A stretch of 64,000 nucleotides of DNA from Robiginitomaculum sp. (lineage in GTDB: Bacteria; Pseudomonadota; Alphaproteobacteria; Caulobacterales; Maricaulaceae), in NCBI GenBank assembly GCA_002733605.1, contig NVWK01000011.1:248001-312000 (forward strand), read 5' to 3'. Every line of letters begins with the position of its first letter. The first letter of the stretch is position 1. Shown here in pieces: positions 11,596 to 33,688 of the stretch. The notes beneath the pieces were generated by a model, which was not told the DNA's origin, ran no database searches, and saw only the letters and a list, made by a program, of their open reading frames with translations. A program made the translations under genes and the position numbers.

Positions 11596-11605
11596 GACAT
11601 TTCCC

Positions 11606-14529: not shown

Positions 14530-14574
14530 GTTTGAATTCCTTATTTAATTAAGTATGGCCCTAATTTCGTTGTC

Positions 14575-17338: not shown

Positions 17339-18109
17339 ATGCGCAATACTCGGAGATATATTTGTAAACCATTGATGGTGGTGGCGTTGCTCGCCATGGG
17401 GGCATGTGAAATACTTCCACAGAATAAGAGCGGTCATGGGTCGGCCCCGTCATCGACACCGGTTATGGACAGTGTGGACAATACCTTGAGCGCTGCGGAA
17501 TTACAGCAGGGTTGGACATTACTGTTCAACGGCAAGGACATGGACCAGTGGCGAAATTTCAAACAGGAGGGCCTGTCGGATAAATGGCAGATCGAAGATA
17601 ATGCCATGACCCTGAGCGGGACTGGCGGTGGTGATATTCTTACGAAAAAAACCTATCAGGATTTTGATTTAAAACTGGACTGGAAAATATCCGTTGCCGG
17701 GAATAGCGGTGTTTTTATCATGACGGATGAGTTGGGCGGGCAAATATATTCCCACGCGGTTGAAATTCAAATTCTCGACAATGAAAGGCACTCTGATAAC
17801 AAATTGGCCTCTCATCTTTCCGGGTCTGTATACGATATGATTGCTTCGCCGGTTTCCTCGCACAAACAAGCGGGCGAATGGAACCAAATGCGCATACGCA
17901 TGCACAATAAAGCTTTAAAGGTTTGGCAAAATGATGCGTTGGTGGCCGATATTATAGTTGGCAGCCAGCGGTGGGATGAGCTTCTTGCGCTGAGTAAATT
18001 TAGTGATTGGCCCGGGTTTGGGTTGACGGAGCGTGGTCATATCGGTTTGCAAGACCATGGAAATCAAGTGGCCTTTAAAAACATCAAAATACTGGAGTTA
18101 GGCCAATGA
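17339..18109 (+). CDS. DUF1080 lipoprotein, 3-keto-disaccharide hydrolase family
   Basis: This is a 256-residue lipoprotein (MRNTRRYICKPLM, lipobox AMGAC at about 23). The body is a single DUF1080/3-keto-disaccharide hydrolase domain: GWTLLFNGKDMDQWRNF, then GGGDILTKKTYQDFDLKLDWK, SGVFI, AVEIQILDN and HIGLQDHGNQVAFKNIKI. Characterised members cleave glycosidic bonds after the sugar has been oxidised at C3. It overlaps the GMC gene by ATGA, which fits that two-step logic: GMC oxidises, DUF1080 cleaves. It acts in the periplasm or at the outer membrane. The 153 bases before it hold no gene. Confidence 0.88.
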   Translation: MRNTRRYICKPLMVVALLAMGACEILPQNKSGHGSAPSSTPVMDSVDNTLSAAELQQGWTLLFNGKDMDQWRNFKQEGLSDKWQIEDNAMTLSGTGGGDILTKKTYQDFDLKLDWKISVAGNSGVFIMTDELGGQIYSHAVEIQILDNERHSDNKLASHLSGSVYDMIASPVSSHKQAGEWNQMRIRMHNKALKVWQNDALVADIIVGSQRWDELLALSKFSDWPGFGLTERGHIGLQDHGNQVAFKNIKILELGQ

Positions 18110-19782
18110 AAGATTTTGACGTCCTCGTCGTGGGGTCCGGTGCAGGCGGCGCAATGGCGGCGTACACGCTGACAAAAGCCGGGCATAAAGTTTTGATGTT
18201 GGAGGCTGGCCGCGACTATGATCCTACGACAGAAACGCCAATGTTTAACACCGGTGCGGACGCTCCGTTAATGGGGGCAGGGACTGTAGACAAAGATTTC
18301 GGGTTCTACGATGCTACGGTTGACGGTGGTTGGACCGTGCCCGGAGAGCCATACACAACGGGTGAAAATTCGGAGTTTTTATGGTGGCGGGCCCGTATGC
18401 TGGGTGGTCGGACAAACCATTGGGGTCGATTTTCCTTACGGTTCAGCGAACATGATTTCAAGGGGAAAACCCGCGACGGTTTAGGCGCGGACTGGCCGTT
18501 CGAGTATGCAGATATTGCCCCATGGTATGATAAAACCGAAGATTTGGTCGGGGTTTGTGGCACCAATACGGGCTTGGACGATATGCCGGATTCTGCTGAG
18601 GGTGTTTTGCAGCCGCCGCCAAAAGCCCGAGTGCCGGAATTACTCGTTTCGGCAGCCGCAAAAAAACTGGGCATCGCGACAGCGCCGATGCACAGGGCTG
18701 TGCTCACCCGTCCAAAAGATGATCGGCAAGCCTGTTTTTATGCAACGCCCTGCGGCCGTGGCTGTTCGATTGGCGCGGCGTTTCAAACAACGACCTCGCT
18801 GATTCCTATGGCGAGGGCCACGGGGAAATTGGAGATTATTACCAATGCGATGGTGAGCTCGGTAGATGCAGATGAAAACGGCAAGGTCAATGCTGTCACA
18901 TATATCGATAAGGAAACGCAGCAAGCGGTGACACTGTCGGCGCGCGTCGTGGTTTTGGCGGCGAGTGCGTGCGAGTCTGCACGTATATTGCTCAATTCGA
19001 AAAGCGAGAAATTTCCAATGGGTCTGGCGAATTCAAGTGGTCAGGTTGGCAAGAATATTATGGATTCAACGGGGGCAAGTTTGGGCGCCCAAATTCCGCT
19101 GTTGGAAGGTCGCCCGCGCTATAATGAAGACGGGCATACCGCGAACCATTTGTTCATTCCGTGGTGGGGACACGCACAACATGCCAGAGGAGAGCTGGAT
19201 TTCCCGCGTGGCTATCATTTTGAAATTGGCAGTGGTTTCAGAGCGCCGGGATCCGGGGCACCGGGTAACCTTCAGGGGTATGGAAAAGAGATTGCGGATC
19301 AGGCCAAACGACAATATGGAGCTTATGTGGGGTTAGCTCTGCGCGGAGAAATGTTGCCAAACGCACAAAGCTATATGGAAATTGACGAGAAGGTACAGGA
19401 TAAGTGGGGTATTCCTGTGGCGAAATTTCATTGGGCTTGGTCAAAGCATGAACTGAAACAGGTCGAGCACGGCTTAAAAACCGCGAAGAAAATATTGGAA
19501 ACAATGGGCGCAAAATTTACTGACCCGCTGCCTTCCGCCGAAACGGCGATTGCCAAGGGCGGTCAAATTATTCATGAGGTCGGGAGTACCAGAATGGGCG
19601 CCTCGGCGACGGATTCTGTAACCAATCAATATGGGCAGACTTGGGATTGTGACAATCTTTTTGTTATGGACGGTGGGGTTTTTGCCTCTAATCCACACAA
19701 AAACTGCACATTGACAATTATGACATTGGTTATGAGAAATGCTTCGTGGTTAGCCTCTCAACTTGATAAGGGGGCGTTGTAG
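18106..19782 (+). CDS. GMC family FAD-dependent sugar dehydrogenase (second copy)
   Basis: This 558-residue catalytic subunit has an FAD motif VVGSGAGGAM, GMC N and C domains, and the catalytic pair His490 (HEVGSTRMG) and Asn533 (HKNCTLT). Cys210, Cys216 and Cys220 give C-x5-C-x3-C, the same [3Fe-4S] cluster spacing as the first copy and as FAD glucose dehydrogenases. It has no leader and relies on a subunit 3 partner. It overlaps DUF1080 upstream and is followed three bases later by the disrupted subunit 3 gene. It differs clearly from the copy at 8342, so the two probably oxidise different glycosides. Confidence 0.88.
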   Translation: MKDFDVLVVGSGAGGAMAAYTLTKAGHKVLMLEAGRDYDPTTETPMFNTGADAPLMGAGTVDKDFGFYDATVDGGWTVPGEPYTTGENSEFLWWRARMLGGRTNHWGRFSLRFSEHDFKGKTRDGLGADWPFEYADIAPWYDKTEDLVGVCGTNTGLDDMPDSAEGVLQPPPKARVPELLVSAAAKKLGIATAPMHRAVLTRPKDDRQACFYATPCGRGCSIGAAFQTTTSLIPMARATGKLEIITNAMVSSVDADENGKVNAVTYIDKETQQAVTLSARVVVLAASACESARILLNSKSEKFPMGLANSSGQVGKNIMDSTGASLGAQIPLLEGRPRYNEDGHTANHLFIPWWGHAQHARGELDFPRGYHFEIGSGFRAPGSGAPGNLQGYGKEIADQAKRQYGAYVGLALRGEMLPNAQSYMEIDEKVQDKWGIPVAKFHWAWSKHELKQVEHGLKTAKKILETMGAKFTDPLPSAETAIAKGGQIIHEVGSTRMGASATDSVTNQYGQTWDCDNLFVMDGGVFASNPHKNCTLTIMTLVMRNASWLASQLDKGAL

Positions 19783-19785
19783 ATC

Positions 19786-20523
19786 ATGGACAACACAATA
19801 CAAAAAGGGGCTGACTACCAATATAAAAGCGGCATGACACGACGGGACTCGCTGAAATGGCTAAGTGTTTTATCTGCAAGTGCTCTGGTGCCTTCGTTGG
19901 CAGCATGTGGCTCCCCGAAGGATCAAACCAAAGCCATTGCAGGACACTGGCCCGATCTGAAATTGGATAAAATACAGGCGAAGGGCTATGGTAAAGACCC
20001 TGAACTTGTGAATGCAGATAGAATGGCGTGGCCAAGAACGCTGACGCCCGCGCAGCTTACACTGGTCGCGGTGCTTTCAGATATTATCGTGCCGAGAGAC
20101 GGGGCCGTCCCGTCAGCGTCCGAGGTCAGCGTCCCTGATGTTGTCGATGAATGGGTAAGTGCCCCTTACGATCGGCAGCAAAGAGACCGACTCGATATAT
20201 TGTCTACACTTGCATGGATTGACACGGAGGCAGAGACGCGGGTTTCGAAAAAATTTGCGTAAATTCCGCCTAACAACCAAATTAAAATCATGGACGACAT
20301 TGCCTACCGGAAAGACGAATTGGCAGAGGAATTTATCAGAATTGCTGACAGTTTTGCGACTTTCCGCAGGCTGGTGGTGGCCGCATTTTATTGTAGCCCT
20401 GAGGGAAGCGAAAACTTGGGCTATATGGGCAATATACCCATTGCAGGTGATTATCCCGGGCCTACAGAGGACGCGATGGTGCACCTACATAAAACATTGG
20501 AAACATTAAGCTTAACTCTATAA
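19786..20523 (+). pseudogene. Gluconate 2-dehydrogenase subunit 3 gene with in-frame stop
   Basis: The ATG at 19786 opens a 158-codon frame with a twin-Arg type leader (MTRRDSLKWLSVLSA, lipobox-like LAAC) and subunit 3 features (LTPAQLTLVAVLSDIIVP). It stops at TAA 20260-20262 after SKKFA. The same frame continues NNQIKIMDDIAYRKDELA, then a family-like tail (VVAAFYCSPEGSENLGYMG ... IPIAGDYPGP) to 20523. Reading the stop as CAA (Gln) gives a normal 245-residue protein. As written, the C-terminal third is lost, which could leave the second GMC enzyme without export. It may be a sequencing error, since the downstream codons are well preserved. Confidence 0.78.
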
Positions 20524-20528
20524 CGGCC

Positions 20529-21842
20529 CTATTCGCCCTGTGATGATAGGCCGGAAATGAGGGGCTGGTAATATGCGGTGGCGGCGGTGGTTGGTTCGGT
20601 GCTGGGGTGCCAAGCTTTGTTTAATGGAGTGGCTGCAAGGCGCCACTGACCGGCTGAAAACAATGTGCCGATTAAGATGCTTTCAAGTGCGTCCAGACTG
20701 ATGGTGCGCGCCGAGCCTTCAAGCATGGCCTTGGCGATAATTTCCGAAAACTCTGTTGCCAGTCTGCGAAGCTTCACTTCGATTCCCAATCGTTGCGCCG
20801 GACCCAGCACATTAAGTAGGTTTAATCTGATGAGCGGGTCCATATTGGTGATGTGGCCTTCAAACACTGCAAACAAAGCGTGCTCGAGCTGTTCAAGCGC
20901 ATTCATATCGGAAGCGTTCATGGCGGCGTGCAGGGTTTTCTCGATTTGATCACAACTGCGATGGAAACAGCTCTCGACGAGCGAATCCTTGTCGGCGATA
21001 TAATAATAGAACGCCCCGCGTGTCACACCGAGTTCTGCGGCAACGTCACTAAGAGATAAATTCCGGTAGCCTTTGCGGTTTAGATAGCGCGTACCGGTGC
21101 GCATCAATGCATCCCGCTTCAATTGATTCTTGACCTGACGATCGAAAATTGCGGGATAGGTGTCTAATTGTGTGCGCAAAACCGATCTTCGGATTTGCCG
21201 ATTTTTGTCAATTGCAATGCCGTTGCGCAAAATATCACACAGGCCATCGATCGCACTCCCGTGTCGTGCATTTGGAATATTGGCGAGCCATTGCGGTATT
21301 TCGCGCAGAATGTTCAGGATCAAAAATGCAGACGCATCGGGGGACGAAATGTTGATAGACCCGTCTTCACAACCAGCTTCCAGAAAGCCCCGGATTTCAA
21401 GTATCTGGGTTTTAATGCGGTTTGATAATTTTGGATTTGTGACATCCGTAATATCATGTGGCTCGGCTAATAAGGTCAGGGGCGGTCTTTGCGCAGACAA
21501 TGCCTGTGCGTGGGCTTCGGCCCGATTGCGCACAAAGGCAAGAATGCGCTCCAGTCCATTTGTGGCTTGGGCGGCCGTTTCAAGCTCGGCGTCCATATAA
21601 TCGCAAGAGCGCTCGCAGGCCACATCGAGGAGTGCTTCCTTGGATTTGAAATGGTAACTGATGCTGGTTTTGCCCTTGCCAAGCTCTGCCGCAATATCTT
21701 CAAGACGGGTGTCATGATAGCCGCGCATATCAAATAGACTGGCCGCTACGGACAGGATTTGATCACGCTTGCTTTGTTTTTCTGGTTCGGACACGGTCTC
21801 TTTCTTTTGGGCTTTCTCTTGATTTTTAATCTCGGCTTGCAC
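20529..21842 (-). CDS. Tandem TetR regulator (two TetR domains in one chain)
   Basis: At 437 residues this is twice the normal TetR length. The first helix-turn-helix is at about 25-72 (QILSVAASLFDMRGYHDT; KGKTSISYHFKSKEAL) and the second at about 243-292 (ALMRTGTRYLNRKGYRNL; VTRGAFYYYIADKDSL); each is followed by its own helical ligand domain. The frame is continuous, so it is a true fusion. The stop lies five bases from the end of the convergent subunit 3 gene. It is divergent from the TonB receptor operon, which it probably controls. A single chain would present two DNA-binding heads without dimerising. Confidence 0.88.
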   Translation of the reverse strand: MQAEIKNQEKAQKKETVSEPEKQSKRDQILSVAASLFDMRGYHDTRLEDIAAELGKGKTSISYHFKSKEALLDVACERSCDYMDAELETAAQATNGLERILAFVRNRAEAHAQALSAQRPPLTLLAEPHDITDVTNPKLSNRIKTQILEIRGFLEAGCEDGSINISSPDASAFLILNILREIPQWLANIPNARHGSAIDGLCDILRNGIAIDKNRQIRRSVLRTQLDTYPAIFDRQVKNQLKRDALMRTGTRYLNRKGYRNLSLSDVAAELGVTRGAFYYYIADKDSLVESCFHRSCDQIEKTLHAAMNASDMNALEQLEHALFAVFEGHITNMDPLIRLNLLNVLGPAQRLGIEVKLRRLATEFSEIIAKAMLEGSARTISLDALESILIGTLFSAGQWRLAATPLNKAWHPSTEPTTAATAYYQPLISGLSSQGE

Positions 21843-21984: not shown

Positions 21985-24900
21985 ATGTCTAGGCTTTCAC
22001 TCGAAAAATTGCTGTCAACGACAGCGCTTGTTGCTGCCACTGTGTTTTCAAATGCAGCGTGGGCGCAAACCCAACCTGATGCGGACATCAAACCCGATGA
22101 TGAAATTATTGTGGTCGGCACACATATTCGGGGTGCAAGTGTCGTCGATGCCCTGCCGGTCAGTCTTATTACCGAGATGGACCTGGATGCAATTGCCGCG
22201 GATTCCGGTGAAGATTTGTTTCGTTCAATCCCGTCTCAGGGCGCTGTGAATTTCAGTGGTGACAGTGAGGGCGGTGGCGTGAACGGCGCGCGCGGTGATG
22301 TGTCATCGATCAACCTGCGTTCGCTCGGTTCGGGCTACACGCTGACTTTACTCAATGGTCGCCGGGTTGTTTTACATCCGGGTGTGCAAACGGAAAACCT
22401 GGCCCCTGTTGTGACCCCTAATTTGAATGCTCTGCCGACAGGCGGGATTAAACGTATAGAGGTTTTGCGCGATGGGGCGTCTGCTATTTACGGCGCCGAT
22501 GCTGTCGGGGGCGTGGTCAATACGGTTTTGAAGGATAAATATGACGGCTTGCAAGTCACGGCAAAGTACGGCGAATATGACGGGGTCGGGGCGACCGGGT
22601 TAACGCTTGATGCATACGGCGGTACCAATCTTCGGGGTGGGAAAACAAATATTACCTTCTTTGGCAGCTATTATGACCGGGGGCCGATTTTTGCGTCCGA
22701 GCGTGAATATTCTGCCAATTCCGATTTGCGCCCGCTGGTTGTCGGGACGGATTTTGAAGGGGATACGCAGTTTAGAAATCTGTCGACCCATACGGCGTGG
22801 GGGCAATTTGATACGACCATGCGGGTGCGGCAAAATGGCACGGCCCTTACCTCCAGCGGTGGCCGGTTCCATATTCAACCGACATCATTCGCCGGGTGCA
22901 GAGTGGATTTGAACGCGGATATATGTGTTGATGACGGGAGTTTAAATACGGACTTGCGCTATAATACCAAATTGCTGAGCCAAATGACGTCCAGTTTAAA
23001 ACGCTATAATGCGTTCGCCCATGCCACCCATGAATTTGATGATGGCCATGAATTTTACGGCGAGCTGTCTTTTTATAATTCCCAGTCTGACAAGATTAGA
23101 GACGCGACAGCCTTCCTTTCCAGCACGCCTGTTAATATGGCTCCAACAGGATATTACAACATCTTCGGCGCCGAAGGCAGTACAGTCAGATTGCCCGGTT
23201 TGAATGCACCAATTGGGGGTCTCAGTATTGAATTCGGTGGCCCGAACGGGCGCTACCGGGTGTTGGATGCTGGCCCGCGCTTGCTCGAGGTCGAGAATGT
23301 CAGTTGGCGATCTCTTGCTGGCTATAGAGGAGATTGGGGCAAATGGGATTTTGACATGGCCGCCTTGATATCTACGTCTGAAACCAAAGATTTAACAAAA
23401 AACCGCATTAGTGCGACATTGTTCCAAAATGCTTTAAACAGGACAGACCCCAATACGGCCTATAATCCGTTTAATGGTGGTGACATCAATAATGTGAACG
23501 GGTTGGACGTAACGCTTAACCCGCAGTCGGTGATTGATTCTTTTCTCATCGACGTGCGTAGGGATTCCAAGACGGAGCTTATGCTGGCAGATTTCAAACT
23601 GTCTACACCGGACTTTTTCACATTTGCAGGCAATAGTGTCGGGGCGGCCTTTGGTGTAGAAGCCCGGAAAATTTCGTATATTGATGATCGGGATGATCGT
23701 CTTGACGGCACTCAAAAGTTCACTGATTCTGTGACAGGCATTACCTACGATAGTGATGTCATGAATTCCAGTGCAACGCCGGATACACGCGGGGACCGGA
23801 CAACATTATCTGCGTTTGCAGAATTGTATGTTCCCCTTGTTGCACCGGATCAGAACATGCCTCTTGTCTACGCGCTCGAGGTTCAGTTGGCGGGCCGGTA
23901 CGAAAATGCGTCCGATTTTGGCGGTGTGTTTGCACCCAAGATTTCCGTGTCTTACTTCCCGTTTGAGGGCCTGCAATTTCGCGGCGCATATTCGGAAGGC
24001 TTTGTTGCGCCGAATTTAAATGTGATAAACGCAGAAGGGCTTCAACGTTCAAATACGCGTACGGATTACTACCGTTGTCAGGCAGAAATTAATCAAGGGA
24101 CATTGGCGACACAAACGGATTGTTCCCAATCGCAAGGGGTGCTCAGCATTCGTGTCGGGTCAAAAGATTTGCAGGCGCAAACCTATCAAAACCTGTCTCT
24201 GGGCGCGACGTTCGAGCCGCAATTTGTGCCGGGCCTCACGTTAACCGTGGATTATTTTAATATCAAACAGGATGACATTGTCGGTATTGCCGGAGACCAA
24301 GATCAACTGACGTTGGATTATATTCGGCGCTTAAATGGGGGTTCAAATCCAAATGTTGTACGGGCAGCACCGGATGATGACGATATTGCTTTCTTTGCCG
24401 GCTCGGGCCTGGCCGCCGTTGGTGACATTGTATCCGTGACAGATCCGTTCCTAAATCTGGATACACGCAAATCCCAAGGCATTGATTTTGGTATCTATAT
24501 CGACATTGATGATACGCCTTTCGGGAATTTCAATCTGAGTGGCGAGTTGACGCATCTTCTGAAATTTGACCAAGAATTTGGTGCGGTTCAGGCAGAGATT
24601 GCCGCTGCTCCAGAGGCCGTAAATATCGGGCTTGTGGGTGCAGGGGATTTGTTATTGCTGGATGGTCGTCCTGAAAACACGGCAAGCGCAAGAGTGTCGT
24701 GGCGCAAAGGCGCGTTCGGGGCCGGTGTATCTCTGAGCTATATTGGAGAATATTATGATACCAGCGCCACAAACTCCAATGCGATTACGGATGATAATCC
24801 TAACGGGTATTTCACAGTGGATGACTGGCTGACGGCCAATGCTTATGTGCAATATACATTCGAGGATTTGGAGCTTGCGTCTTTGAAAAAACTTCGGGTA

Positions 24901-25026
24901 CGCTTTGGCGCGACGAATATAACCAATGAAGACCCGCCATTATCTGACGAGACCTATGGGTATGATAGTGCCTATCACAGTAATCGTGGCCGGTTTATTT
25001 ATGGCCAAGTGCGCACAACATTTTAA
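21985..25026 (+). CDS. TonB-dependent outer membrane receptor
   Basis: This is a 1013-residue receptor from the ATG at 21985 (GGGGA upstream; an upstream in-frame extension to 21859 lacks a leader and is rejected). It has a signal peptide ending NAAWAQ, a TonB box-like DEIIVVG, a plug domain (about 50-180; RDGASAIYGADAVGGVVN) and a 22-strand barrel ending in KLRVRFGATNITNEDPP and a terminal aromatic VRTTF. It belongs to the large receptors used by aquatic proteobacteria for sugars or aromatic and ester compounds; the substrate is not evident. It is the first gene of an operon with esterase, DASS symporter and lyase. Confidence 0.93.
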   Translation: MSRLSLEKLLSTTALVAATVFSNAAWAQTQPDADIKPDDEIIVVGTHIRGASVVDALPVSLITEMDLDAIAADSGEDLFRSIPSQGAVNFSGDSEGGGVNGARGDVSSINLRSLGSGYTLTLLNGRRVVLHPGVQTENLAPVVTPNLNALPTGGIKRIEVLRDGASAIYGADAVGGVVNTVLKDKYDGLQVTAKYGEYDGVGATGLTLDAYGGTNLRGGKTNITFFGSYYDRGPIFASEREYSANSDLRPLVVGTDFEGDTQFRNLSTHTAWGQFDTTMRVRQNGTALTSSGGRFHIQPTSFAGCRVDLNADICVDDGSLNTDLRYNTKLLSQMTSSLKRYNAFAHATHEFDDGHEFYGELSFYNSQSDKIRDATAFLSSTPVNMAPTGYYNIFGAEGSTVRLPGLNAPIGGLSIEFGGPNGRYRVLDAGPRLLEVENVSWRSLAGYRGDWGKWDFDMAALISTSETKDLTKNRISATLFQNALNRTDPNTAYNPFNGGDINNVNGLDVTLNPQSVIDSFLIDVRRDSKTELMLADFKLSTPDFFTFAGNSVGAAFGVEARKISYIDDRDDRLDGTQKFTDSVTGITYDSDVMNSSATPDTRGDRTTLSAFAELYVPLVAPDQNMPLVYALEVQLAGRYENASDFGGVFAPKISVSYFPFEGLQFRGAYSEGFVAPNLNVINAEGLQRSNTRTDYYRCQAEINQGTLATQTDCSQSQGVLSIRVGSKDLQAQTYQNLSLGATFEPQFVPGLTLTVDYFNIKQDDIVGIAGDQDQLTLDYIRRLNGGSNPNVVRAAPDDDDIAFFAGSGLAAVGDIVSVTDPFLNLDTRKSQGIDFGIYIDIDDTPFGNFNLSGELTHLLKFDQEFGAVQAEIAAAPEAVNIGLVGAGDLLLLDGRPENTASARVSWRKGAFGAGVSLSYIGEYYDTSATNSNAITDDNPNGYFTVDDWLTANAYVQYTFEDLELASLKKLRVRFGATNITNEDPPLSDETYGYDSAYHSNRGRFIYGQVRTTF

Positions 25027-25066
25027 ATGTTAGGCGGGCTGGCGTGATCCGGGCTAATGTAGGGCT

Positions 25067-25936
25067 ATGTTAAACCGGAGAGATATGAGTGTAGGCGGAC
25101 TTGCGGCGGCTTTGTGCTTGTCGCAGGTTTCCGCAAAAGCGGTGACGGAGGGCGGGGATGCGCATGTGGGTAGTTTCACATTCGATGCTTGGGATGGCCC
25201 GTCCCTGCAGGTTTATTTTGTCGAACCAGCATCCGCTCCGCAGGATGCGCCTATCGTGATTGTCATGCACGGGGCAGGCCGCAATGCGGATGATTATCGG
25301 GATAACTGGATCGATTTAGCCAAGCAATACGGGTTTGTTGTTTATGCGCCCGCGTTTGACCGGAAACATTTTCCGAAAGCCAGACACTATAATATGGGTG
25401 GGTTGACGGCAGAGAAACCGCGTGCTTTTGACGCGATAGACCCGTTGTTTGATATGATAAAGAAGCGGCGTACATCCGGCCCGGATAAGTATATTCTTTT
25501 TGGCCATTCTGCCGGTGCACAATTTGTCCACCGCTTCGTATTTTTTCGTCCAAAGGCCCGCTATAAAATGGCGATTGCGGCCAATGCGGGCTGGTATACT
25601 TTGACGCGCAAAGATCAAAACTGGCCTTACGGCTTGGGTAAACTTAAAAAACGCCGCTATAATATGAAAGAGGTTTTTCAAAAACCGTTGGTGATCTTGC
25701 TCGGGGCGAAAGACAATGTTCCGAATGATAAAAATCTGCGCACCACACCAAAGGCTATGGCGCAAGGCCCGCACCGTCTTGCCAGAGGTGTGTATTTTTT
25801 GAAGACGGCCAAAGCATCTGCCGAAGCTTCAAGGGTCACTCTAAAATGGCGGTTTCAAATTATTCCGGGTGTTGGGCATGATAATCGGGGCATGGCTATT
25901 GCGGCGGCGGCACTGATTGCTCAAGAGCAAAATTAA
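25067..25936 (+). CDS. Exported alpha/beta hydrolase (PHB depolymerase/esterase-like)
   Basis: This 289-residue hydrolase has a twin-Arg type leader (MLNRRDMSVGG) ending SAKA at about 25. It has an alpha/beta fold with oxyanion motif MHGAGRNADDY, nucleophile Ser148 in GHSAGAQ and a C-terminal catalytic His in GVGHDNRG. An Asp in LLGAKDNVPND is the likely acid. It resembles PHB depolymerase or feruloyl-esterase-type enzymes. It starts 40 bases after the TonB receptor and 35 bases before the symporter, so it would cleave an ester brought in by the receptor. Confidence 0.85.
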   Translation: MLNRRDMSVGGLAAALCLSQVSAKAVTEGGDAHVGSFTFDAWDGPSLQVYFVEPASAPQDAPIVIVMHGAGRNADDYRDNWIDLAKQYGFVVYAPAFDRKHFPKARHYNMGGLTAEKPRAFDAIDPLFDMIKKRRTSGPDKYILFGHSAGAQFVHRFVFFRPKARYKMAIAANAGWYTLTRKDQNWPYGLGKLKKRRYNMKEVFQKPLVILLGAKDNVPNDKNLRTTPKAMAQGPHRLARGVYFLKTAKASAEASRVTLKWRFQIIPGVGHDNRGMAIAAAALIAQEQN

Positions 25937-25970
25937 AAGCCCAAGAAAAAATAACAGGACGGACACTCAC

Positions 25971-27434
25971 ATGGTAGCAAATGCTGACACACATCGGGCT
26001 CTTTACCAAAATATTGGGCTGGCTGCGGGCCCCCTTCTGGGCATGCTTATCGTTTCCGCGCTTAAAAACACGGCGCTCCCTACCGAAGCGATCTCTATGG
26101 CGGGTATTGCCACATGGATGGCGATCTGGTGGGCGACAGAGGCAATTCCGGTTGCCGTTACTGCTTTTTTGCCACTGGTTGTGTTTCCACTTTTCGGGAT
26201 TGGTACATTTAAAGTGACGGCGACTTCCTATGCCCACCCGATCATATATTTATTTTTGGGCGGTTTTGTTGTTGCGTTGGCGATTGAACGTTCAGGGCTA
26301 CATATACGGGCGGCGTTGAATATTTTCCGGCTTGCAGGGATGAACGGGAAATCACTTGTTGCCGGATTTATGTTGTCGGCGGCCGTTATCAGCATGTGGA
26401 TTTCCAACACATCTACGACGCTTATGCTGCTTCCAATTGCGGCTTCGGTTACGCTTGTGATTCGCGAAACCATGAGTGAATTGGGACAGAAAAACCTGCT
26501 TAATTTTGAAACATCAATGTTGCTTGGACTTGCTTATGGGGCAACGCTCGGCGGGATGTCGACCTTGGTCGGCACCCCGCCCAATGCTTTTATGGCCGGA
26601 TTTATGGCCGATACTTATAATCTCGAGATTGATTTTGCCCGCTGGATGTTGGTGGGGGTGCCTTTGGCTGCCATTATGTTACCGATTACGTGGCTGGTGC
26701 TTACGAAGTTTTTATATCCGGTCAATTTCATCGCTACGGATCATGCGCGCCGGCACATAAACAATCTCAGGAGCGGGCTAGGCCCCATGAGTGTCGCGGA
26801 GCGGCGGACGGCCTATATATTCCTTGCACTTGTCATTGGCTGGCTGTTTAGAAAACCGATTATCTCGGTGACCGGTTTGTCCGGATTAACCGATCCCGGT
26901 ATTGCCATGATGGCTGCCGTTGCCGCCTTTATTATTCCCAGTGGCAAGAAAGGCGAAGCCTTGATGATGTGGGAGGATATGAAAAAATTGCCTTGGGGGG
27001 TTCTCATTCTTTTTGGTGGCGGTCTGGCATTGGCGGCCGGTATGACTTCGTCGGGCCTTACGCTTTGGCTCGGCAAGCAATTGGCACCTTTGGGCAATGT
27101 GCATCTTGGGCTATTGGTTGTGGCTTCGGTCCTGCTTGTGATTTTCCTTACCGAGATGACAAGTAATTTGGCGACGACCGCGACGATTTTACCCGTCATG
27201 GCCGCGATTGCCGTCGAGACCGGACAAGACCCGCTCGCTTTCGTTATTCCCGTCACTTTGGCTGCAAGCTGTGCCTTTATGCTGCCGGTGGCCACGCCGC
27301 CAAATGCGATTGTCTTTAGCTCCGGGCATGTGTCTATTCCGCGTATGATGCGCGCGGGCCTCGTTCTTAATTTAATTGGTGTTGCCGTATTATCGCTTAT
27401 TGCGTTAAAATTGGTGCCAATTGTCTTCGGGTAA
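25971..27434 (+). CDS. DASS/SLC13 family sodium-dicarboxylate symporter
   Basis: This is a 487-residue protein with about 11-12 membrane segments. The ATG at 25971 is chosen; a TTG at 25917 would overlap the esterase and adds a charged tail. Hallmarks of the divalent anion:Na+ symporters are present: WISNTSTTLMLLP and EMTSNLATTATILP (the two SNT-type clamp motifs), with VGTPPNAFMAGF and VATPPNAIVFSSG after them. Family members import succinate, fumarate, malate or related dicarboxylates. The next gene encodes an exported lyase of a superfamily whose common product is fumarate, which suggests the symporter takes up that product. Confidence 0.92.
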   Translation: MVANADTHRALYQNIGLAAGPLLGMLIVSALKNTALPTEAISMAGIATWMAIWWATEAIPVAVTAFLPLVVFPLFGIGTFKVTATSYAHPIIYLFLGGFVVALAIERSGLHIRAALNIFRLAGMNGKSLVAGFMLSAAVISMWISNTSTTLMLLPIAASVTLVIRETMSELGQKNLLNFETSMLLGLAYGATLGGMSTLVGTPPNAFMAGFMADTYNLEIDFARWMLVGVPLAAIMLPITWLVLTKFLYPVNFIATDHARRHINNLRSGLGPMSVAERRTAYIFLALVIGWLFRKPIISVTGLSGLTDPGIAMMAAVAAFIIPSGKKGEALMMWEDMKKLPWGVLILFGGGLALAAGMTSSGLTLWLGKQLAPLGNVHLGLLVVASVLLVIFLTEMTSNLATTATILPVMAAIAVETGQDPLAFVIPVTLAASCAFMLPVATPPNAIVFSSGHVSIPRMMRAGLVLNLIGVAVLSLIALKLVPIVFG

Positions 27435-27453
27435 GAGATAGGAAAACATCGCC

Positions 27454-28866
27454 ATGATTTCACGTAAATTTACATGTAGTGTGGCTTTCACATTTGCCTT
27501 ATTACCGTTTGATGTGATCGGGAATTATGCCGAGGCGCAAACCTCTGCAACCGACTCTGTTTCCGATATTTTCGCTCGGGAAAATCGCAACCAGCTTGTG
27601 ATGGATATAGAGGCTGCAATCGCGCAGGCGCAGGCCAAGTATGACATCATCCCACAGCGCGCCGCAGACCAGATTGCCGCTCATGCCGGTATACAATACG
27701 CCCCGCTCGCCGCGATTAAAACCGAATACAAACTGACCAATCACCGCATGGTGGCGTTGTTAAATGTTTGGCGGCGAAGTCTGGACCCGGGGGCCGCCAA
27801 TTATTTACACTACGGGGTTACGACGGTTGATATTTACGACACTGTGCGGGTCTTGCAAATTCGCGCCAGCCTAAATGTGTTGTTGGCGGACATGGTCGAG
27901 ATTGAAGATCGTTTGATTGTGATCGCGACGACGCACCGTGATACGGTGATGGTGGGCCGCACCATTGGCCAACATGCTTTGCCCATTACATTCGGGAAAA
28001 AGGTCGTGGTCTGGCTGGCCCAGAACCGTAGAAATATAGACAGGCTGCAAGAGTTGCAAATACGGCTTGAGAGCTCCGGTGTTTTAAAAGGGGCGGTCGG
28101 CACACATTTGGGACTTGGGCCGAAAGGTGTGCTTGTGGAGCGCGAGGTTTCTGCCAAGCTAGGATTGCGCACACCGGAGGCTGCGGACTGGCACGGGGCG
28201 CGGGATGTGTTTGCTGAATACGGGCAAGTTCTGGCGCTTATTTCCAAATCATATGCGTCTATCGGTGCAGAAATCTTCCGCTTGTCGACAACGGATATTG
28301 GTGAGCTGTCCGAGCGTCAAGCCACAAGCAATGTTGGCAGTAGCACAATGCCCCACAAGAAAAACCCGCGCTGGCCCGAGCGGGTCATCCATCATGGCCG
28401 CAAAATTCCGCGCTTGGCTGAAGTGCTTTTGGATGATGTTGAAAATTCTTTCGAGCGGGATAATACAAGCGGCCCGAACCGGATCATAGAGGAGATCAGC
28501 CTCGAAGCTGCAAAAATGATGCGCGATACCAAATCCTTGTTGAAAAATTTGCGTGTGGATAAAGACAGAATGCGCGAGAATCTTGCGCGTACAGACGGGA
28601 TGATTATGGCACAACGATTAATGCTGGCCCTGTCCAAACATATTGACAGGACGCTGGCGGAAGAACATGTGCGCAAGGCCGCCCAAAAAGCGATAGATAC
28701 GAAGATGAGCTTTCGCGCCGCTTTGCTCGAAGACCCTGTTCTGGCCCCGTATTTGAACGACACCATTGACGAACTTCTCAACCCCGAAACCTATTTGGGT
28801 CTGGCGCGCGAGCAAGTGGATTTGAGCGTTGCAGACATAAAACGACGTCGTGCGCAGCCCAAATAA
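27454..28866 (+). CDS. Exported lyase of the fumarase/adenylosuccinate lyase superfamily
   Basis: This is a 470-residue protein with a Sec-type leader (MISRKFTCSV, hydrophobic to about 23, AEA cleavage near 28), unusual for this cytoplasmic superfamily. It keeps YLHYGVTTVDIYDT (117-130), GRTIGQHALPITFG (168-181) and the signature GSSTMPHKKNP (295-305) with the catalytic Ser loop, plus a C-terminal ADSL_C-like helical domain. In true adenylosuccinate lyase the second motif reads GRTHG; here Ile171 replaces that catalytic His, as in the cycloisomerase (PcaB-like) branch. It is therefore not a housekeeping PurB. It probably eliminates or cyclises a dicarboxylate in the periplasm, next to a DASS importer 19 bases upstream. 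Confidence 0.87.
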   Translation: MISRKFTCSVAFTFALLPFDVIGNYAEAQTSATDSVSDIFARENRNQLVMDIEAAIAQAQAKYDIIPQRAADQIAAHAGIQYAPLAAIKTEYKLTNHRMVALLNVWRRSLDPGAANYLHYGVTTVDIYDTVRVLQIRASLNVLLADMVEIEDRLIVIATTHRDTVMVGRTIGQHALPITFGKKVVVWLAQNRRNIDRLQELQIRLESSGVLKGAVGTHLGLGPKGVLVEREVSAKLGLRTPEAADWHGARDVFAEYGQVLALISKSYASIGAEIFRLSTTDIGELSERQATSNVGSSTMPHKKNPRWPERVIHHGRKIPRLAEVLLDDVENSFERDNTSGPNRIIEEISLEAAKMMRDTKSLLKNLRVDKDRMRENLARTDGMIMAQRLMLALSKHIDRTLAEEHVRKAAQKAIDTKMSFRAALLEDPVLAPYLNDTIDELLNPETYLGLAREQVDLSVADIKRRRAQPK

Positions 28867-28914: not shown

Positions 28915-29712
28915 TTATTTTGGCTTGCGGTATTTATGGACAAAACTTGTCGTCTTGCCGGAAAGCCCGGTCTTGAACCAAATGTTTTTGAGATCATCGT
29001 CCGGGTTGGCAAACAGTGTTGGGGCCTCCCCGACAAATTCAAAGCCTACGCCGACAATGTCCGCCTTGGCTGTTGCTGGCGGTGTACGGTGCCAGCCTGC
29101 GCTGTCGGCACGGCTTGACCCGTCAATGGCGACGTGTTCGATGACGATGAATGTACCACCGGGTTTCAAAACCCGGTTATATTCATTGAACAATGCAGTT
29201 GAATCGTCAGGCAGAGCCTCGCCCGTTTCTTCTGAATAGTGAAGATGGTGCAGGATATAAGACAACATAATGGTATCTACACTATTGTCTGCAACTGGAA
29301 AAGCTGCATCCGCCTCGACGGGCATCAGGTTGATATTTCCAAAGGGTGAAAATTTAGCTGTGAGCGCCTCTTTGCTTTTTTCAAACCGTTCACCGGCACG
29401 TTGGTGGGCGTAAATTTTGCCGCTGTCGCCAACGACCGTACTAAATAATTCAGACCAGTATCCACCGCCTGCGCCGAAATCAAGAACCGTGTCGCCAGCG
29501 CCGAGATCAATAAAGGCTAAAACCTGAGCAGGCTTACGGGCTTCGTCTCGCTTGGTTTGATCCTCACCCCTGTGTGTGTTGGCAATCGCGTCATGAATAG
29601 AAGCTTTGCTGGGCATAGATTTAGCGGCTTCGTCCGCACTAGCAGAATACGCGAATGTCCCCAAGGTCAGCGTTGCTGCTGCCGTCATTAAAATCAGTTT
29701 TTTCATCTTCAT
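28915..29712 (-). CDS. Exported class I SAM-dependent methyltransferase
   Basis: This is a 265-residue protein with a clear signal peptide (MKMKKLILMTAAATL, ASA cleavage near 27). The Rossmann methyltransferase fold has motif I VLDFGAGGGYWSE (about 77-89), the acidic loop after it, VDTIMLSYILHHL and the post-motif VLKPGGTFIVIEH. SAM is not expected in the periplasm, yet such exported homologues recur in alphaproteobacteria; their role is not established. It stands alone on the minus strand between the lyase and the GH9 gene. Confidence 0.85.
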   Translation of the reverse strand: MKMKKLILMTAAATLTLGTFAYSASADEAAKSMPSKASIHDAIANTHRGEDQTKRDEARKPAQVLAFIDLGAGDTVLDFGAGGGYWSELFSTVVGDSGKIYAHQRAGERFEKSKEALTAKFSPFGNINLMPVEADAAFPVADNSVDTIMLSYILHHLHYSEETGEALPDDSTALFNEYNRVLKPGGTFIVIEHVAIDGSSRADSAGWHRTPPATAKADIVGVGFEFVGEAPTLFANPDDDLKNIWFKTGLSGKTTSFVHKYRKPK

Positions 29713-29816: not shown

Positions 29817-32309
29817 TTATTTAGCGCCGAAATAACTATCGGCGGCCATGGCTAAAAACATATAATTGGTTGAGCCTCCGCCCATCACATATTCCGTCTG
29901 TTGCCAGAAAAACGGCCATTCGCGAAGCTCCGGTAAATCAGGACGGATCAGGGCTGTGCCGGAAATAACACCGCCCGGAATAAAGGACCAGTCTGCCCGA
30001 TTGACGCCGTAAGCCACCAAAGCCGAACTGGACCCGACGCCGGATGCAAAGGACATGGTGTTTTCGCCCGGATGCACGCCAAGGACAAAATTGAGCGCAC
30101 TGAGTACGGGATCACGGCTAGCCAAATCCGGCCAGGCTTTATGGGCAAAATACTGCTGAACCCCAAAGCGTTGTATATCCCAGCCTGCACCCCAGATATT
30201 GGGTCTGTAAGGCACACCGTAAGGCGTTGCCGCTGAAAGTGCATTGATTGTCTTCTGGTGCTCTTTAACGGCTTCCCGAATAGCTTTCTGGAAGTCTTTG
30301 TCCTCGATCTTGTCGATGGCCATGCCAATGACCCAGCCGGTTCTGGCGATTTCTTTTATGATCTCGTCTTGCATGGCGACAAGCTTGTCCGCATAGGCTG
30401 TGTCGCCTGTGGACAGGAATAACTCCGTGAGGGCGAATGTCTTGGCATATGTGCTTTTCGACTTATTCAAAGCTTTGTCGGTGATCTCGATCGCAGCCGC
30501 CAATGCGTCGCGGGACATTTCTGGGCGTTCCGTCTTGAGAACCCGTGCCGCCGCCGCCAGTCCTGCTGCCGCACCAAGTTCCCGATTGGGATTGTCCTCT
30601 GTAAACACCCAGCGGTCATCACTGACGGGCTTGGGCGATTGGAATTTACCATCGGTCTGCACAGCCGCGTCCCCGAGCATCACATATTGCCGGTTGGTCG
30701 GGACGATAATTCCGCGGTACAAACGCCCCATGGATTTATAAGCGCCCAAAACGCTTAGCAGGCCATGCTCGATCTGCTGGATTGCATCATTTTCGCCGTC
30801 AGCCTGATGGATTTCCGTGATTTTGTTGACTTGATCTATAGTTGTGGTGTCATAATTCAGGCCAAATTCTTCAACCATTTTTGACAGGAGCCAGACGGTG
30901 GTCATTTGCGATTCAACCCGCAAATCATAATCGCCCGCGTCATGCCAACCCCCCGCGTTTAAATTCGGAACAGGTGTCATAGAGGTGTACTCGGTCAGTG
31001 TAGATTTACCCTGCACATAGCCGTCAAAATGATTGATATCGACGGGGGCCATCAAGGCATCGTCCTGATGATCTAACCCGTGCCAGACCCGGTATTTTTC
31101 GTTGACCCGCATATGGCACATTTGCACAGGCAGATAATATTCCAACACTGGCTGCCATGCATGGCGCGAAAACACATCATCTCCGATTTTAAACGGGTGC
31201 GAGGTTTTGTCCCCATAAGAGACTTGATACATTCCGGGTGTGGTGACGTCGCTAAAATCATGCACCAGATATTGGTAGCGTAAAAAATCACCCCAAAGCT
31301 CGGGCTTGGCGGATTGCACTTGAACCGGCCCGTCTTCTGTGAGTCGTTGAATGACAATTGTATGCCGTTGCGTGTCATTCGAAGCCTGCTCGATAATCAC
31401 CCGCTTGGTTTGTCTGGCTGCATAGCCGTGTTGGGACACCTGAATGACGGGTTCATAGGCCCAATCTTTTTTGCGGTGCGGGGTTATTAGCCATTCGACT
31501 GCGTTTTTAGTGACGCCCGCTTTTAAGGGAGAGCGGACAATGAACCAGCCATTATTGTGGTTGGTACGGCCATCCCAAAGCTCCAGAGTATTGTCGATTG
31601 CCTCGATTTTTATCCGCACCAGATCATCATCCAGTCCGGCAACAAGTGTGTGCCCTTTGCCAAGGGACGCGGCCAGAGTTTCTCCGGCGTGGATTTGCAA
31701 CGGGCCATTTGGCTGGCGCGGGAATATGCCGGTGGTTTCGCCTATGCTAAAGGCTTTGCCAAAATAATCCGGCGGGAAAAACTCGAAATTAAATCCGATT
31801 TTTCCGACCCATTCGCTCGGGACAGGGGCGTCTAAATCTACGCTGACACGGAAGCTATCCCCGCCCGCAGGTTTCACCCGAACCGTATAAGAAAAATCAA
31901 GATCAGGATAAATGATAGGGTTAAATCCCGTCCGGTCTTTGCCCTTATCCGGATAGGACATGGTTTGGCGAATTTCGTTGGCATCCGTATCGACAATACG
32001 CTCTCCCGCCTTCGGCACTGGCGACCACTGTCCCGGAGAAATCTCGAGCCGGACATCGCCGTTTGCGGCCACGCGTTTGCCATGTTGAATAATGGTGACC
32101 CCGGTCTGGTGGCCATCGGGGTAATAATCTGCAAAAACTGTAACGTTCAGGCCCGGTGCTTCGAAATATTCTTTATCGTTCAGGCGTAGGCTGGACGTTG
32201 GCGCTGGTGCCTCTACAGACGGGCTTTGTGCCATGGCCGTTATTGTGGCCATATTGGCTCCACAGCCAAATACGAATGTCGTGGCAATTAGGGCCTGAAA
32301 TATTTTCAT
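29817..32309 (-). CDS. Glycoside hydrolase family 9 (endoglucanase/exo-glucosidase type)
   Basis: This 830-residue exported enzyme has a leader with a Cys (TFVFGCG), so it is possibly a lipoprotein. A beta-rich N-terminal region of about 250 residues precedes a CelD_N Ig-like domain (about 290-385; QVSQHGYAARQTKRVII ... GDKTSHPFKIGDDVF) and the GH9 (alpha/alpha)6 barrel (about 390-830). Catalytic Asp457 and Asp460 lie in GGWHDAGDYD, and the general acid is Glu806 in QQTEYVMGGGS. GH9 enzymes cut beta-1,4-glucans or act on cello-oligosaccharides. The gene overlaps DUF4380 upstream by ATGA and faces GH43 and an SGNH esterase, so this is a plant or algal glycan locus. Confidence 0.92.
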   Translation of the reverse strand: MKIFQALIATTFVFGCGANMATITAMAQSPSVEAPAPTSSLRLNDKEYFEAPGLNVTVFADYYPDGHQTGVTIIQHGKRVAANGDVRLEISPGQWSPVPKAGERIVDTDANEIRQTMSYPDKGKDRTGFNPIIYPDLDFSYTVRVKPAGGDSFRVSVDLDAPVPSEWVGKIGFNFEFFPPDYFGKAFSIGETTGIFPRQPNGPLQIHAGETLAASLGKGHTLVAGLDDDLVRIKIEAIDNTLELWDGRTNHNNGWFIVRSPLKAGVTKNAVEWLITPHRKKDWAYEPVIQVSQHGYAARQTKRVIIEQASNDTQRHTIVIQRLTEDGPVQVQSAKPELWGDFLRYQYLVHDFSDVTTPGMYQVSYGDKTSHPFKIGDDVFSRHAWQPVLEYYLPVQMCHMRVNEKYRVWHGLDHQDDALMAPVDINHFDGYVQGKSTLTEYTSMTPVPNLNAGGWHDAGDYDLRVESQMTTVWLLSKMVEEFGLNYDTTTIDQVNKITEIHQADGENDAIQQIEHGLLSVLGAYKSMGRLYRGIIVPTNRQYVMLGDAAVQTDGKFQSPKPVSDDRWVFTEDNPNRELGAAAGLAAAARVLKTERPEMSRDALAAAIEITDKALNKSKSTYAKTFALTELFLSTGDTAYADKLVAMQDEIIKEIARTGWVIGMAIDKIEDKDFQKAIREAVKEHQKTINALSAATPYGVPYRPNIWGAGWDIQRFGVQQYFAHKAWPDLASRDPVLSALNFVLGVHPGENTMSFASGVGSSSALVAYGVNRADWSFIPGGVISGTALIRPDLPELREWPFFWQQTEYVMGGGSTNYMFLAMAADSYFGAK

Positions 32310-33427
32310 TGGGCATTCCTCTTACAGTTTTGAATTTGATCAAGATTGACTTTGATGCTGTCCATTAAGTCTTTTGGCTGTTGTGTGTCGGGATAGGCTC
32401 TCACCGTCCAGTATTGTACGGCGCGCATGGTTTCACCCGCATCGAGTTTTTTCATCGCAGCATGGGATTCCATTTCAATAAAACTGGCGGTTATATTGGA
32501 CGGGGTTTGATCGAAGTAAAATTCAATTTGGCCCTGTTCGGGATGGATACCTTCTTTAGGCAAAAGATCGAACCCGATGACAAAAAGCTGATCTTTTACA
32601 AAAGCGGCCATCCAGCCTGCATCCGGATCCATCAAAATTTTTCCGCGACGGCCCTTTGTATGTGCATCCGTAATCTCGGCATTGACAACAGCCAGACCAT
32701 TTTCAAAAACAAGCTCCGGTGACATATAGTCCGATGAAAAATTCTTACCATAGCGGGCATGGTCGGCGGTTTGAACGGGGGCTACAATATTGGCCTCGGG
32801 GTGCACGCGGGTGTTAAACCAGACCCCCCATTCAACCGGTGTTTGGCGGATATTTTTCACACTGGCCATGACCCGCAAACATCCCGCAGCTTGTAGGGTA
32901 TATGTTTGTGTTATGGTAACGCCGGATACGGGACTGGCGCGGCCGGATAGGGTAAGCTCGGTCTGCGTAACAATCGGGTCGGTTGGCTGTAATGTCAAAA
33001 AGGGATCGGGTGGCCATTCCTGACCTCGCTGTGTGATCTCCAGTTCTTGCTGGTTCCACCACTCATTTTGCGGGCTCAACCAAACCGAATGCCCCAGATA
33101 GGGTGGCTCGCCAGAGCCAATGCTGATTTCGGGTTCCGGGTGTTGTTGTGCAAGCGTGTGGTTAAATTTCACTACACTCTCATATCCGGGCACAGAAAAA
33201 TGTGTAAGGCGTCCCCCGAATAACGGCGTAAATTGAGCCGAGAGGTTTTGGTTTTTCAGGCTTATAATTTGGGGGGTGTTTTGACCGGATGCGGGGGGCG
33301 TTACAGAAGGCATAACAGGGGACGCAGGCGTACAAGCAACCAATGCTGTCTCAAGAACCGGTAGGGATATAATGGCGGCCATATGGCGTTTTAAACTTGA
33401 TATAGTTTTAAATTTTAGCGCTAACAT
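32306..33427 (-). CDS. DUF4380-like lipoprotein, mutarotase-like beta-sandwich
   Basis: This 373-residue protein starts at the ATG at 33427 (a TTG at 33454 is less likely), with the leader MLALKFKTISSLKRH, a hydrophobic segment and lipobox LVACTP. The body is beta-rich (LKNQNLSAQFTPLFGGRLT; LGHSVWLSPQNEWW; WGVWFNTRVHPEAN; EMESHAAMKKLDAGETM), a pattern I associate with DUF4380 and the galactose mutarotase fold. Its function is unknown, perhaps sugar binding or anomer conversion. It is the first gene of the GH9 operon, and its start codon overlaps a LacI-type operator. Confidence 0.72.
   Translation of the reverse strand: MLALKFKTISSLKRHMAAIISLPVLETALVACTPASPVMPSVTPPASGQNTPQIISLKNQNLSAQFTPLFGGRLTHFSVPGYESVVKFNHTLAQQHPEPEISIGSGEPPYLGHSVWLSPQNEWWNQQELEITQRGQEWPPDPFLTLQPTDPIVTQTELTLSGRASPVSGVTITQTYTLQAAGCLRVMASVKNIRQTPVEWGVWFNTRVHPEANIVAPVQTADHARYGKNFSSDYMSPELVFENGLAVVNAEITDAHTKGRRGKILMDPDAGWMAAFVKDQLFVIGFDLLPKEGIHPEQGQIEFYFDQTPSNITASFIEMESHAAMKKLDAGETMRAVQYWTVRAYPDTQQPKDLMDSIKVNLDQIQNCKRNAQ
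33413..33426. promoter_or_regulatory. LacI-family type operator TGTTAGCGCTAAAA
   Basis: Read on the minus strand, the 14-mer has the TG-N2-AGCGCT-N2 form of LacI-family sites around a perfect 10-base palindrome TTAGCGCTAA (33415-33424). It abuts the DUF4380 start codon, where a repressor would block transcription or initiation. Confidence 0.5.
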
Positions 33428-33602
33428 ACCCCACACTAGTAGGATTCGAGCCAAATTCCAATAGAATTCAGAAAAACTTCTAAATTATCGTACTTACAAA
33501 AACACAGCAAATATCAAGCAGAGATGGGACAAACCAAATTCACCCTATTTTTCCAGCCGGAAAGTTACGTATTTGTAACACCATAAGATTTGCGCATTGA
33601 TT

Positions 33603-33616
33603 TGATAGCGCTCCCA
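33603..33616. promoter_or_regulatory. CelR-like operator TGATAGCGCTCCCA
   Basis: It matches 12 of 14 positions of TGGGAGCGCTCCCA, the operator described for the cellulase regulator CelR of Thermobifida (LacI family). It lies 73 bases before the GH43 start in the divergent GH9/GH43 gap. The 261-base gap holds no gene. No LacI-type regulator is encoded in this window. Confidence 0.55.
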
Positions 33617-33688
33617 TAATACAGTGGACAAATATTTTCTATAAACCTAGAAGAGAGAAAATGGGCCTTTCGTTTTGGGGATGATATT

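Follow-up and report, generated by a model that had tools for sequence, protein, structure and literature searches.

An exported, histidine-less lyase clade of the aspartase/fumarase superfamily from a TonB–DASS locus of Robiginitomaculum

The window analysed here is a 64,000-nucleotide stretch of Robiginitomaculum sp. DNA (contig NVWK01000011.1), and its subject is a row of four co-directional genes on the + strand (positions 21985–28866). They encode a TonB-dependent outer-membrane receptor, an exported alpha/beta-hydrolase, a sodium-coupled dicarboxylate symporter of the DASS family and an exported lyase of the aspartase/fumarase superfamily. The locus is real and conserved, and joins known parts in a new combination: an exported branch of the superfamily that lacks a catalytic His, set in a TonB–DASS locus. 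To our knowledge, the superfamily is otherwise cytoplasmic. No description of such a locus was found in the full-text literature searched, a body that most subscription papers lie outside.

A receptor, hydrolase, symporter and lyase in one row

The receptor (1013 residues; 21985–25026, + strand) has Pfam Plug and TonB barrel domains. Divergent from it lies a double-TetR protein of 437 residues with two Pfam TetR_N domains (20529–21842, − strand), likely the regulator of the locus. Gaps of 40, 34 and 19 bases separate receptor, hydrolase, symporter and lyase, counting the symporter from the ATG at 25971; the mechanical open reading frame (ORF) begins at the TTG at 25917, and the receptor start is likewise an ATG within a longer TTG ORF. 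An earlier reading of this DNA (the original prediction) had proposed the row, and its ORFs and families are as claimed there. The symporter (487 residues; 25971–27434, + strand; Pfam Na_sulph_symp) scores 277.9 bits against NCBIfam TIGR00785 (cut-off 198.6), has NaCT, NaDC and VcINDY as PDB relatives and conserves the S/T-NT and TSN motifs.

The hydrolase (25067–25936, + strand; DLH/Esterase_PHB-like in Pfam) carries an Arg pair in its leader (NRRDM...). Its best PDB match is poly(aspartic acid) hydrolase-1 (6ve6, E 6e-60), followed by 9o7u, which bears the same name, and then by LpqC. The GHSAG, Asp and His motifs are present, giving a triad of Ser148, Asp216 and His271 assigned by motif; triad and sequence relation together point to a PahZ1-like enzyme. 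By eye, leaders are found in the hydrolases of the locus and none in several hydrolases elsewhere in the class (for example, L160, L161, L165 and L166; L and G numbers denote loci and genomes). PahZ1-like genes elsewhere in the class (L160–L169) and in SAR86-type genomes (L173–L175) have neighbourhoods without a helpful common theme. The protein had been called an exported esterase: the exported alpha/beta-hydrolase stands, but it is closest to PahZ1 amide hydrolases, so 'esterase' was a guess. A generic esterase identity was dropped, since PahZ1 is the best solved relative.

The lyase (470 residues; 27454–28866, + strand) combines Pfam Lyase_1 and ADSL_C domains. It opens with a Sec-type leader (residues 1–28; 27454–27537) in which AEA, at residues 26–28, precedes the cleavage site. 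The AlphaFold (AF2) model has a predicted local distance difference test (pLDDT) score of 86.7 and a predicted TM-score of 0.84, with pLDDT below 50 at residues 1–3 and 5–33. The superfamily loop pattern GSSxxPxKxN is present as GSSTMPHKKNP (residues 295–305; 28336–28368), which includes the presumed catalytic base Ser. From residue 168 the sequence reads GRTIGQ, placing Ile171 (codon 27964–27966) where PurB, ASL, aspartase and fumarase have the catalytic His. Leader, loop and Ile171 had all been pointed out in the original prediction.

An exported lyase clade that has lost the catalytic His

The genome carries three further Lyase_1 genes, each above its family cut-off: purB (500.3 bits; cut-off 326.2), argH (580.5; 279.5) and the class II fumarase gene fumC (770; 664.75). 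The lyase of the window is therefore an extra copy. Its best NCBIfam score, 327.7 bits, is to the 3-sulfopropionylcysteine synthase XcbD and misses the cut-off of 600; it likewise misses those for purB (281.7; cut-off 326.2), PcaB (272.7; 595) and nitrosuccinate lyase (191.9; 650). Where the last family has the loop SSxMPxKRNP, that of the window lyase ends in KKNP, and relatives from the same family of bacteria have N, V, I, S or T after the K. Foldseek ranks Tad1, 3c8t, CMLE, CreD and then PurB as structural relatives of the model (TM ~0.8); alignments place Trp in CMLE and Asn in Tad1 at the His position. In view of the sub-cut-off scores, the loss of the His, a separate clade and the genome's own purB, a disguised PurB or PcaB homologue was rejected.

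The clade was resolved in an 83-row tree with leaders trimmed, in which a single branch (ultrafast bootstrap 100, SH-aLRT 100) sets the 31 exported rows apart from all the others, a true PcaB row (L126) among them. Left out of the tree were the fumarase L001, L036 and L158, which duplicate L035 and L118 respectively, and, with L002 as the exception, every row whose matched span did not exceed 350 residues. The residue table, of 31 clade and 55 outgroup rows, retains L001–L003 and L036 (two identical pairs). A hydrophobic stretch lies ahead of the domain in all 30 clade rows examined, with an 11-residue mean of 1.87–3.29; this is a test of plain hydrophobicity with a narrow margin, outgroup rows reaching up to 1.73 except for L046, whose long upstream extension gives 2.16. 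A script found lipoboxes in five clade leaders, and further Cys-containing leaders are visible in L102, L107, L109 and L110. A separate exported clade with conserved leaders, as the original prediction anticipated, is thus what the homologues present.

The His that protonates the leaving group in the superfamily (GRTH) is absent throughout the clade, position 171 being Leu in 25 rows, Ile in four, Arg in two and His in 0 of 31. Of the 55 outgroup rows, 52 carry His there, two Phe and one Trp, the last being the PcaB of L126, which scores above its cut-off. Ser296, Ser297, Lys302, Asn304, Glu53, His119, Asp126, Arg335 and His97 are kept in 31/31 clade rows, and His247 in 30 (exception L118), leaving the set E53/H119/D126/H247/R335 complete in 30/31.

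Two other departures within the superfamily were seen. L120 and L129 are leaderless members in which Phe replaces the His (GRSF), a further His-less branch near PcaB. Loci L035, L036, L039–L042 and L049 (Desulfobulbaceae, others titled Deltaproteobacteria) carry two adjacent, different lyases of the superfamily; the pair of L035 is PRK08937/XcbD-like, below cut-off.

The locus in other genomes

The lyase occurs in 17 of 137 genomes of the window's family. Among 385 genomes drawn from its class, the lyase was found in the window's own genome and in G281, the other 18 matching genomes listed showing 33–37% identity. Thirteen gammaproteobacterial loci, from Microbulbifer, SAR92, SAR86, Thalassotalea and others, show 46–53% identity; these and all further gammaproteobacterial locus figures rest on the best 80 of 153 loci. 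In a sample of 369 genomes from G522's class, two carry the lyase, one of them being G522 itself.

All 16 other same-family loci hold a double-TetR gene (434–563 residues, by ORF length), the hydrolase and DASS. A close homologue of the window-type receptor (799–847 bits) is present in 14 of them, and weak matches alone in L103 and L104. The lyase gene of these loci lies beside the regulator and runs in the opposite direction to hydrolase and DASS; in the window it lies 3' of DASS. A DASS gene is found near the lyase in nine of the 13 gammaproteobacterial loci; L033 has DASS with a weak receptor match. Because it recurs in other genomes, the gene set is not a chance assembly. No purine or pca gene was found near the lyase among the selected neighbours scanned for families, so the purine and pcaB settings against which the original prediction had been staked did not appear. 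In L027, a TonB receptor split into three ORFs (11533–14562) lies beside the lyase locus.

Hydrolase and lyase are closely but not strictly associated. Within the 137 family genomes, the hydrolase is found in 17/17 with the lyase and in 4/120 others (G011, G092, G095 and G110; Fisher p 3e-18, kinship ignored). Two lyase-less loci (L178 and L179) run M14 carboxypeptidase, double-TetR, receptor, PahZ1 and DASS, and a third (L181) double-TetR, receptor, PahZ1 and DASS; tblastn found no lyase remnant in any of the three, positive controls having matched. The DASS of L178 spans two consecutive ORFs (11916–13391; 334 + 154 residues), a frameshift or assembly error. In L180 (G110, of the window's genus), the hydrolase has neither a receptor nor a DASS match nearby.

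The lyase also occurs without the hydrolase. Three Microbulbifer loci (L025, L026 and L034) hold receptor, DASS and lyase, with sigma-factor and DUF4880 genes upstream (selected neighbours were scanned, and these families confirmed in L025), and their genomes (G524, G525 and G532) have no hydrolase match at E 1e-10. G522 also lacks a hydrolase match, but its locus L023 carries an M28 peptidase; the match in G526 lies elsewhere. Hydrolase matches were found in six of 12 gammaproteobacterial genomes searched, three at 25–28% identity. Because each enzyme occurs without the other beside receptor and DASS, the two may be partly interchangeable modules, each yielding a DASS-importable acid. The original prediction had made esterase and lyase fixed, successive steps; that both sit beside receptor and DASS holds, but a fixed order looks doubtful.

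The M14 carboxypeptidase of most same-family loci escaped the original prediction because the window's genome is without it: no match was found there at 1e-5, whereas the same query matches 35 of the 137 family genomes, including 15 of the 17 lyase-bearing ones. Family assignment rests on Pfam for L107, L110, L102 and L024 and on clustering for the rest, with shadow ORFs in the clustering disregarded. HPPE and NPDG are present in all ten proteins inspected and a lipobox, by eye, in eight. The nearest PDB entries are bacterial M14 peptidases and cytosolic carboxypeptidase-like protein 5.

Around the row itself, a class I S-adenosylmethionine (SAM)-dependent methyltransferase with an apparent signal peptide is convergent to the lyase (28915–29712, − strand); its export is odd, SAM not being expected in the periplasm. 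Upstream (17339–20262, + strand), a 3-keto-disaccharide hydrolase, a GMC oxidoreductase and a Gluconate_2-dh3 protein follow one another, likely a sugar-oxidation set, and downstream (29817–34741) GH9-like, DUF4380 and GH43 proteins form a carbohydrate neighbourhood.

A candidate route for an acidic substrate, and its rivals

The locus is, with good confidence, dedicated to uptake and catabolism of an extracellular acidic compound, with release of the fumarate type. We propose that this compound is composed of, or ends in, C4-dicarboxylate units. The receptor would carry it into the periplasm, where the lyase, judging by its leader, would work; there the two exported enzymes would release dicarboxylate, the PahZ1-like enzyme by hydrolysis and the lyase by beta-elimination. 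The DASS protein would then import the product dicarboxylate, and the double-TetR protein would regulate the set. In the full proposal the substrate is an ester of the O-acyl-malate or polymalate type, from which the lyase would expel the carboxylate to leave fumarate as its predicted product. We put the probability of this whole at roughly 0.3; as to the substrate it is conjecture.

Beta-polymalate is the ester analogue of a beta-linked Asp chain, the kind that PahZ1 enzymes cut, and this counts in favour of the ester. On such a polymer, one elimination could follow another starting at the carboxyl end, every round releasing a single fumarate and exposing the next end. That the lyase is a periplasmic exo-lyase unzipping beta-polymalate or another O-acyl-malate polymer in this way is slightly more doubtful than the ester proposal as a whole. 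Bacteria do degrade polymalate (excerpt of PMC9210645). In the full-text literature searched, nothing bore directly on a gene for a polymalate hydrolase in bacteria, or on exported lyases of the fumarase superfamily.

A malate ester is preferred mainly because hydrolase and lyase each seem to give a DASS-importable product. The products of both routes would then be expected among the substrates of DASS, which suits malate and fumarate and, less well, free aspartate. The active site of the lyase, compared by spacing and motif, resembles those of superfamily members with anionic leaving groups. CreD has Leu170 at the position where AspB, ADSL, ASL and FumC carry a His with a suggested part in leaving-group departure (excerpt of PMC13411527). 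In the same excerpt, E49/H118/D125/H253/R341 are named as the residue set of nitrite-using enzymes and are placed also in CMLE, whose leaving group is a carboxylate, and in FlcC, where it is sulfur. Mapped by spacing and motif, the set corresponds to E53/H119/D126/H247/R335 in the window lyase, and Leu170 to Ile171. Loss of the His, retention of a CreD-like set, Trp in CMLE and Asn in Tad1 together suggest that the leaving group departs as an anion, without being protonated.

Several observations weigh against this proposal, beginning with the active site. All five residues recur in 38 of the 55 outgroup rows, of which 35 also have His at 171, and because the set is this common only the loss of the His is special. 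His97, a residue shared with PurB-type rows, is present in 31/31 clade rows and could act as an acid, and 3c8t, second in the Foldseek list, keeps the His. The E/H pair, which the excerpt of PMC13411527 limits to nitrosuccinate lyases, CMLE and FlcC, is present in nearly all our outgroup rows, the genome's own PurB included, so either the residue mapping is uncertain or the ADSL of that paper differs. The conserved synteny that the original prediction expected, which holds for receptor and DASS across the loci above, fails in four of the 13 gammaproteobacterial loci, where no DASS lies near the lyase (L029, L030, L032 and L024), and likewise in a later locus, L182. The first three belong to or group with SAR86 and have neither DASS nor a close receptor; the neighbours in L030 (AOX, PhzF and alcohol-dehydrogenase-like) look unrelated to the locus. 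L024 sits on a 7 kb contig, and its genome carries hydrolase, DASS and M28 on L171.

The remaining adverse points concern the bond that is cut. The characterised PahZ1 enzymes act on amides, that of Pedobacter cutting beta- but not alpha-linked Asp trimers (excerpt of PMC4456602). Because the closest solved relative of the hydrolase is thus an amide hydrolase, its sequence does not decide between ester and amide. The Comamonas polymalate hydrolase is described as having no serine- or metallo-esterase activity (excerpt of PMC9210645) and so does not match a PahZ1-like serine hydrolase. A gene clustering with the M14 carboxypeptidases is found in 14/16 same-family loci (not L103 or L104) and in 2/13 gammaproteobacterial ones, and other amide-hydrolase neighbours are M28 (L023), M20 (L033) and GGT (L022 and L031). 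L031 has a further alpha/beta-hydrolase beside the lyase, and L026 a C-N hydrolase about 2 kb beyond it. L158 (G281) joins hydrolase, DASS and lyase with M14, a receptor and, by NCBIfam models below cut-offs (DASS excepted), a D-amino-acid-dehydrogenase-like protein, a PRK09061-like amidohydrolase and a symporter of the dicarboxylate/Glu-Asp type. Finally, two loci from the window's genus (L183, 3240–14784; L184, 4654–16404) are likely a sister system for acidic amides, which may be D-acidic amides or poly-gamma-glutamate. They encode LysR, a receptor close to that of the window (~830 bits), a D-amino-acid-dehydrogenase-like protein, M14, a PRK09061-like amidohydrolase and a GltP/DctA-like (Glu/Asp-type) symporter, with PGA_cap in L183.

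Much of this favours beta-aspartyl or polyaspartate-like amides as the substrate, an alternative nearly equal in weight to the ester. Hydrolase and M14 would then cut acidic (iso)peptides and the lyase would free fumarate from Asp or a C-terminal N-acyl-Asp, much as ADSL takes fumarate from SAICAR, before import by DASS. The PahZ1 relatives of the hydrolase, the M14 genes of most same-family loci with M28, M20 and GGT in some gammaproteobacterial ones, and the sister loci with their close receptor all speak for it. Yet 31/31 clade lyases lack the acid His that a departing amide or amine should need as its proton donor, an amide remaining at the chain end would by our reasoning block a second round, and where the lyase is missing (L178, L179 and L181) the symporter retained is DASS, not one of the aspartate type. 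We also know of no natural beta-polyaspartate. Cyanophycin and polyaspartate are down-weighted as substrates, as is poly-gamma-glutamate, a better fit to L183 and L184.

An unlikely option is another anionic leaving group, released by C-S cleavage (of S-succinyl-cysteine or S-succinyl-glutathione after trimming by GGT and peptidase) or in a nitrosuccinate-type reaction, as in FlcC, XcbD and CreD. XcbD gives the best NCBIfam score, the mapped residue set resembles that of CreD, CMLE and FlcC, and GGT stands beside the locus in L022 and L031; however, the score is far under the XcbD cut-off, GGT is found in few loci and the PahZ1-like hydrolase of 16/16 same-family loci is left unexplained. S-succinyl-glutathione is likewise down-weighted, GGT also occurring without the lyase in L159. 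Less likely again is a lyase with lactone formation or opening as its reaction, or with a larger acid as its substrate, like CMLE or Tad1, with DASS importing a di- or tricarboxylate other than fumarate. Tad1 tops the Foldseek list and CMLE follows 3c8t, both without the His, but the succinate-binding residues are kept and the clade stands apart from the true PcaB row. A cytoplasmic, PurB-like housekeeping lyase with a chance hydrophobic N terminus and chance neighbours would account for superfamily membership and ADSL_C, and is very improbable given the genome's own purB, argH and fumC, leaders in 30/30 rows, synteny and the separate clade.

The analysis defines an exported clade in which a catalytic position has undergone a conserved change. 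Synteny links the clade to an outer-membrane receptor and a dicarboxylate importer, both in the window's family and in gammaproteobacteria, including SAR92 and Microbulbifer. It suggests a testable candidate route by which such bacteria could use an acidic compound, and PahZ1-type hydrolases, met through a synthetic polymer in the excerpt of PMC4456602, may have a natural role there. Were the exo-lyase reading true, a lyase degrading a non-carbohydrate polymer would have evolved inside the fumarase superfamily. It could replace or complement the PahZ1-like hydrolase in an undescribed route of polymer use by these bacteria, several of which are marine by record title.

Each part of the locus has a known counterpart. 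The lyase shares with PurB the ADSL_C domain, His97 and the superfamily residues, but differs in its sub-cut-off score (281.7, against 500.3 for the genome's own purB), the lost GRTH His and the leader. CMLE/PcaB has the same fold, lacks the His (Trp) and uses a carboxylate as nucleophile or leaving group; the window lyase falls below the family cut-off, has no pca gene among the scanned neighbours, carries a leader and has His97 where the PcaB row has Asn. The trans-aconitate decarboxylase Tad1 (9h3i) is the top Foldseek match and also lacks the His (Asn), but identity is 27–29%, and substrate and product are other ones. CreD (5xny and 5xnz) resembles the lyase in fold, SS-loop and replaced His (Leu) and, by the spacing-based mapping, in an E/H/D/H/R set that most outgroup rows also have; it differs in identity (28–29%, Foldseek) and in belonging to a biosynthetic pathway, and the window lyase is below the family cut-off. 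PahZ1 (6ve6 and 9o7u) and the hydrolase share an alpha/beta-hydrolase family and the Ser/Asp/His motifs, whereas the excerpt of PMC4456602 describes no receptor, lyase or symporter locus for PahZ1. A receptor likewise stands beside degradative enzymes in the TonB loci of marine bacteria for which cyanophycin or N-acyl-D-amino acids have been predicted as substrates (excerpt of PMC3400609), but the word 'lyase' is absent from the main text of that paper. The symporter, in turn, passes the DASS family model and shares the motifs of NaCT, NaDC and VcINDY, a likeness from which its function here is predicted.

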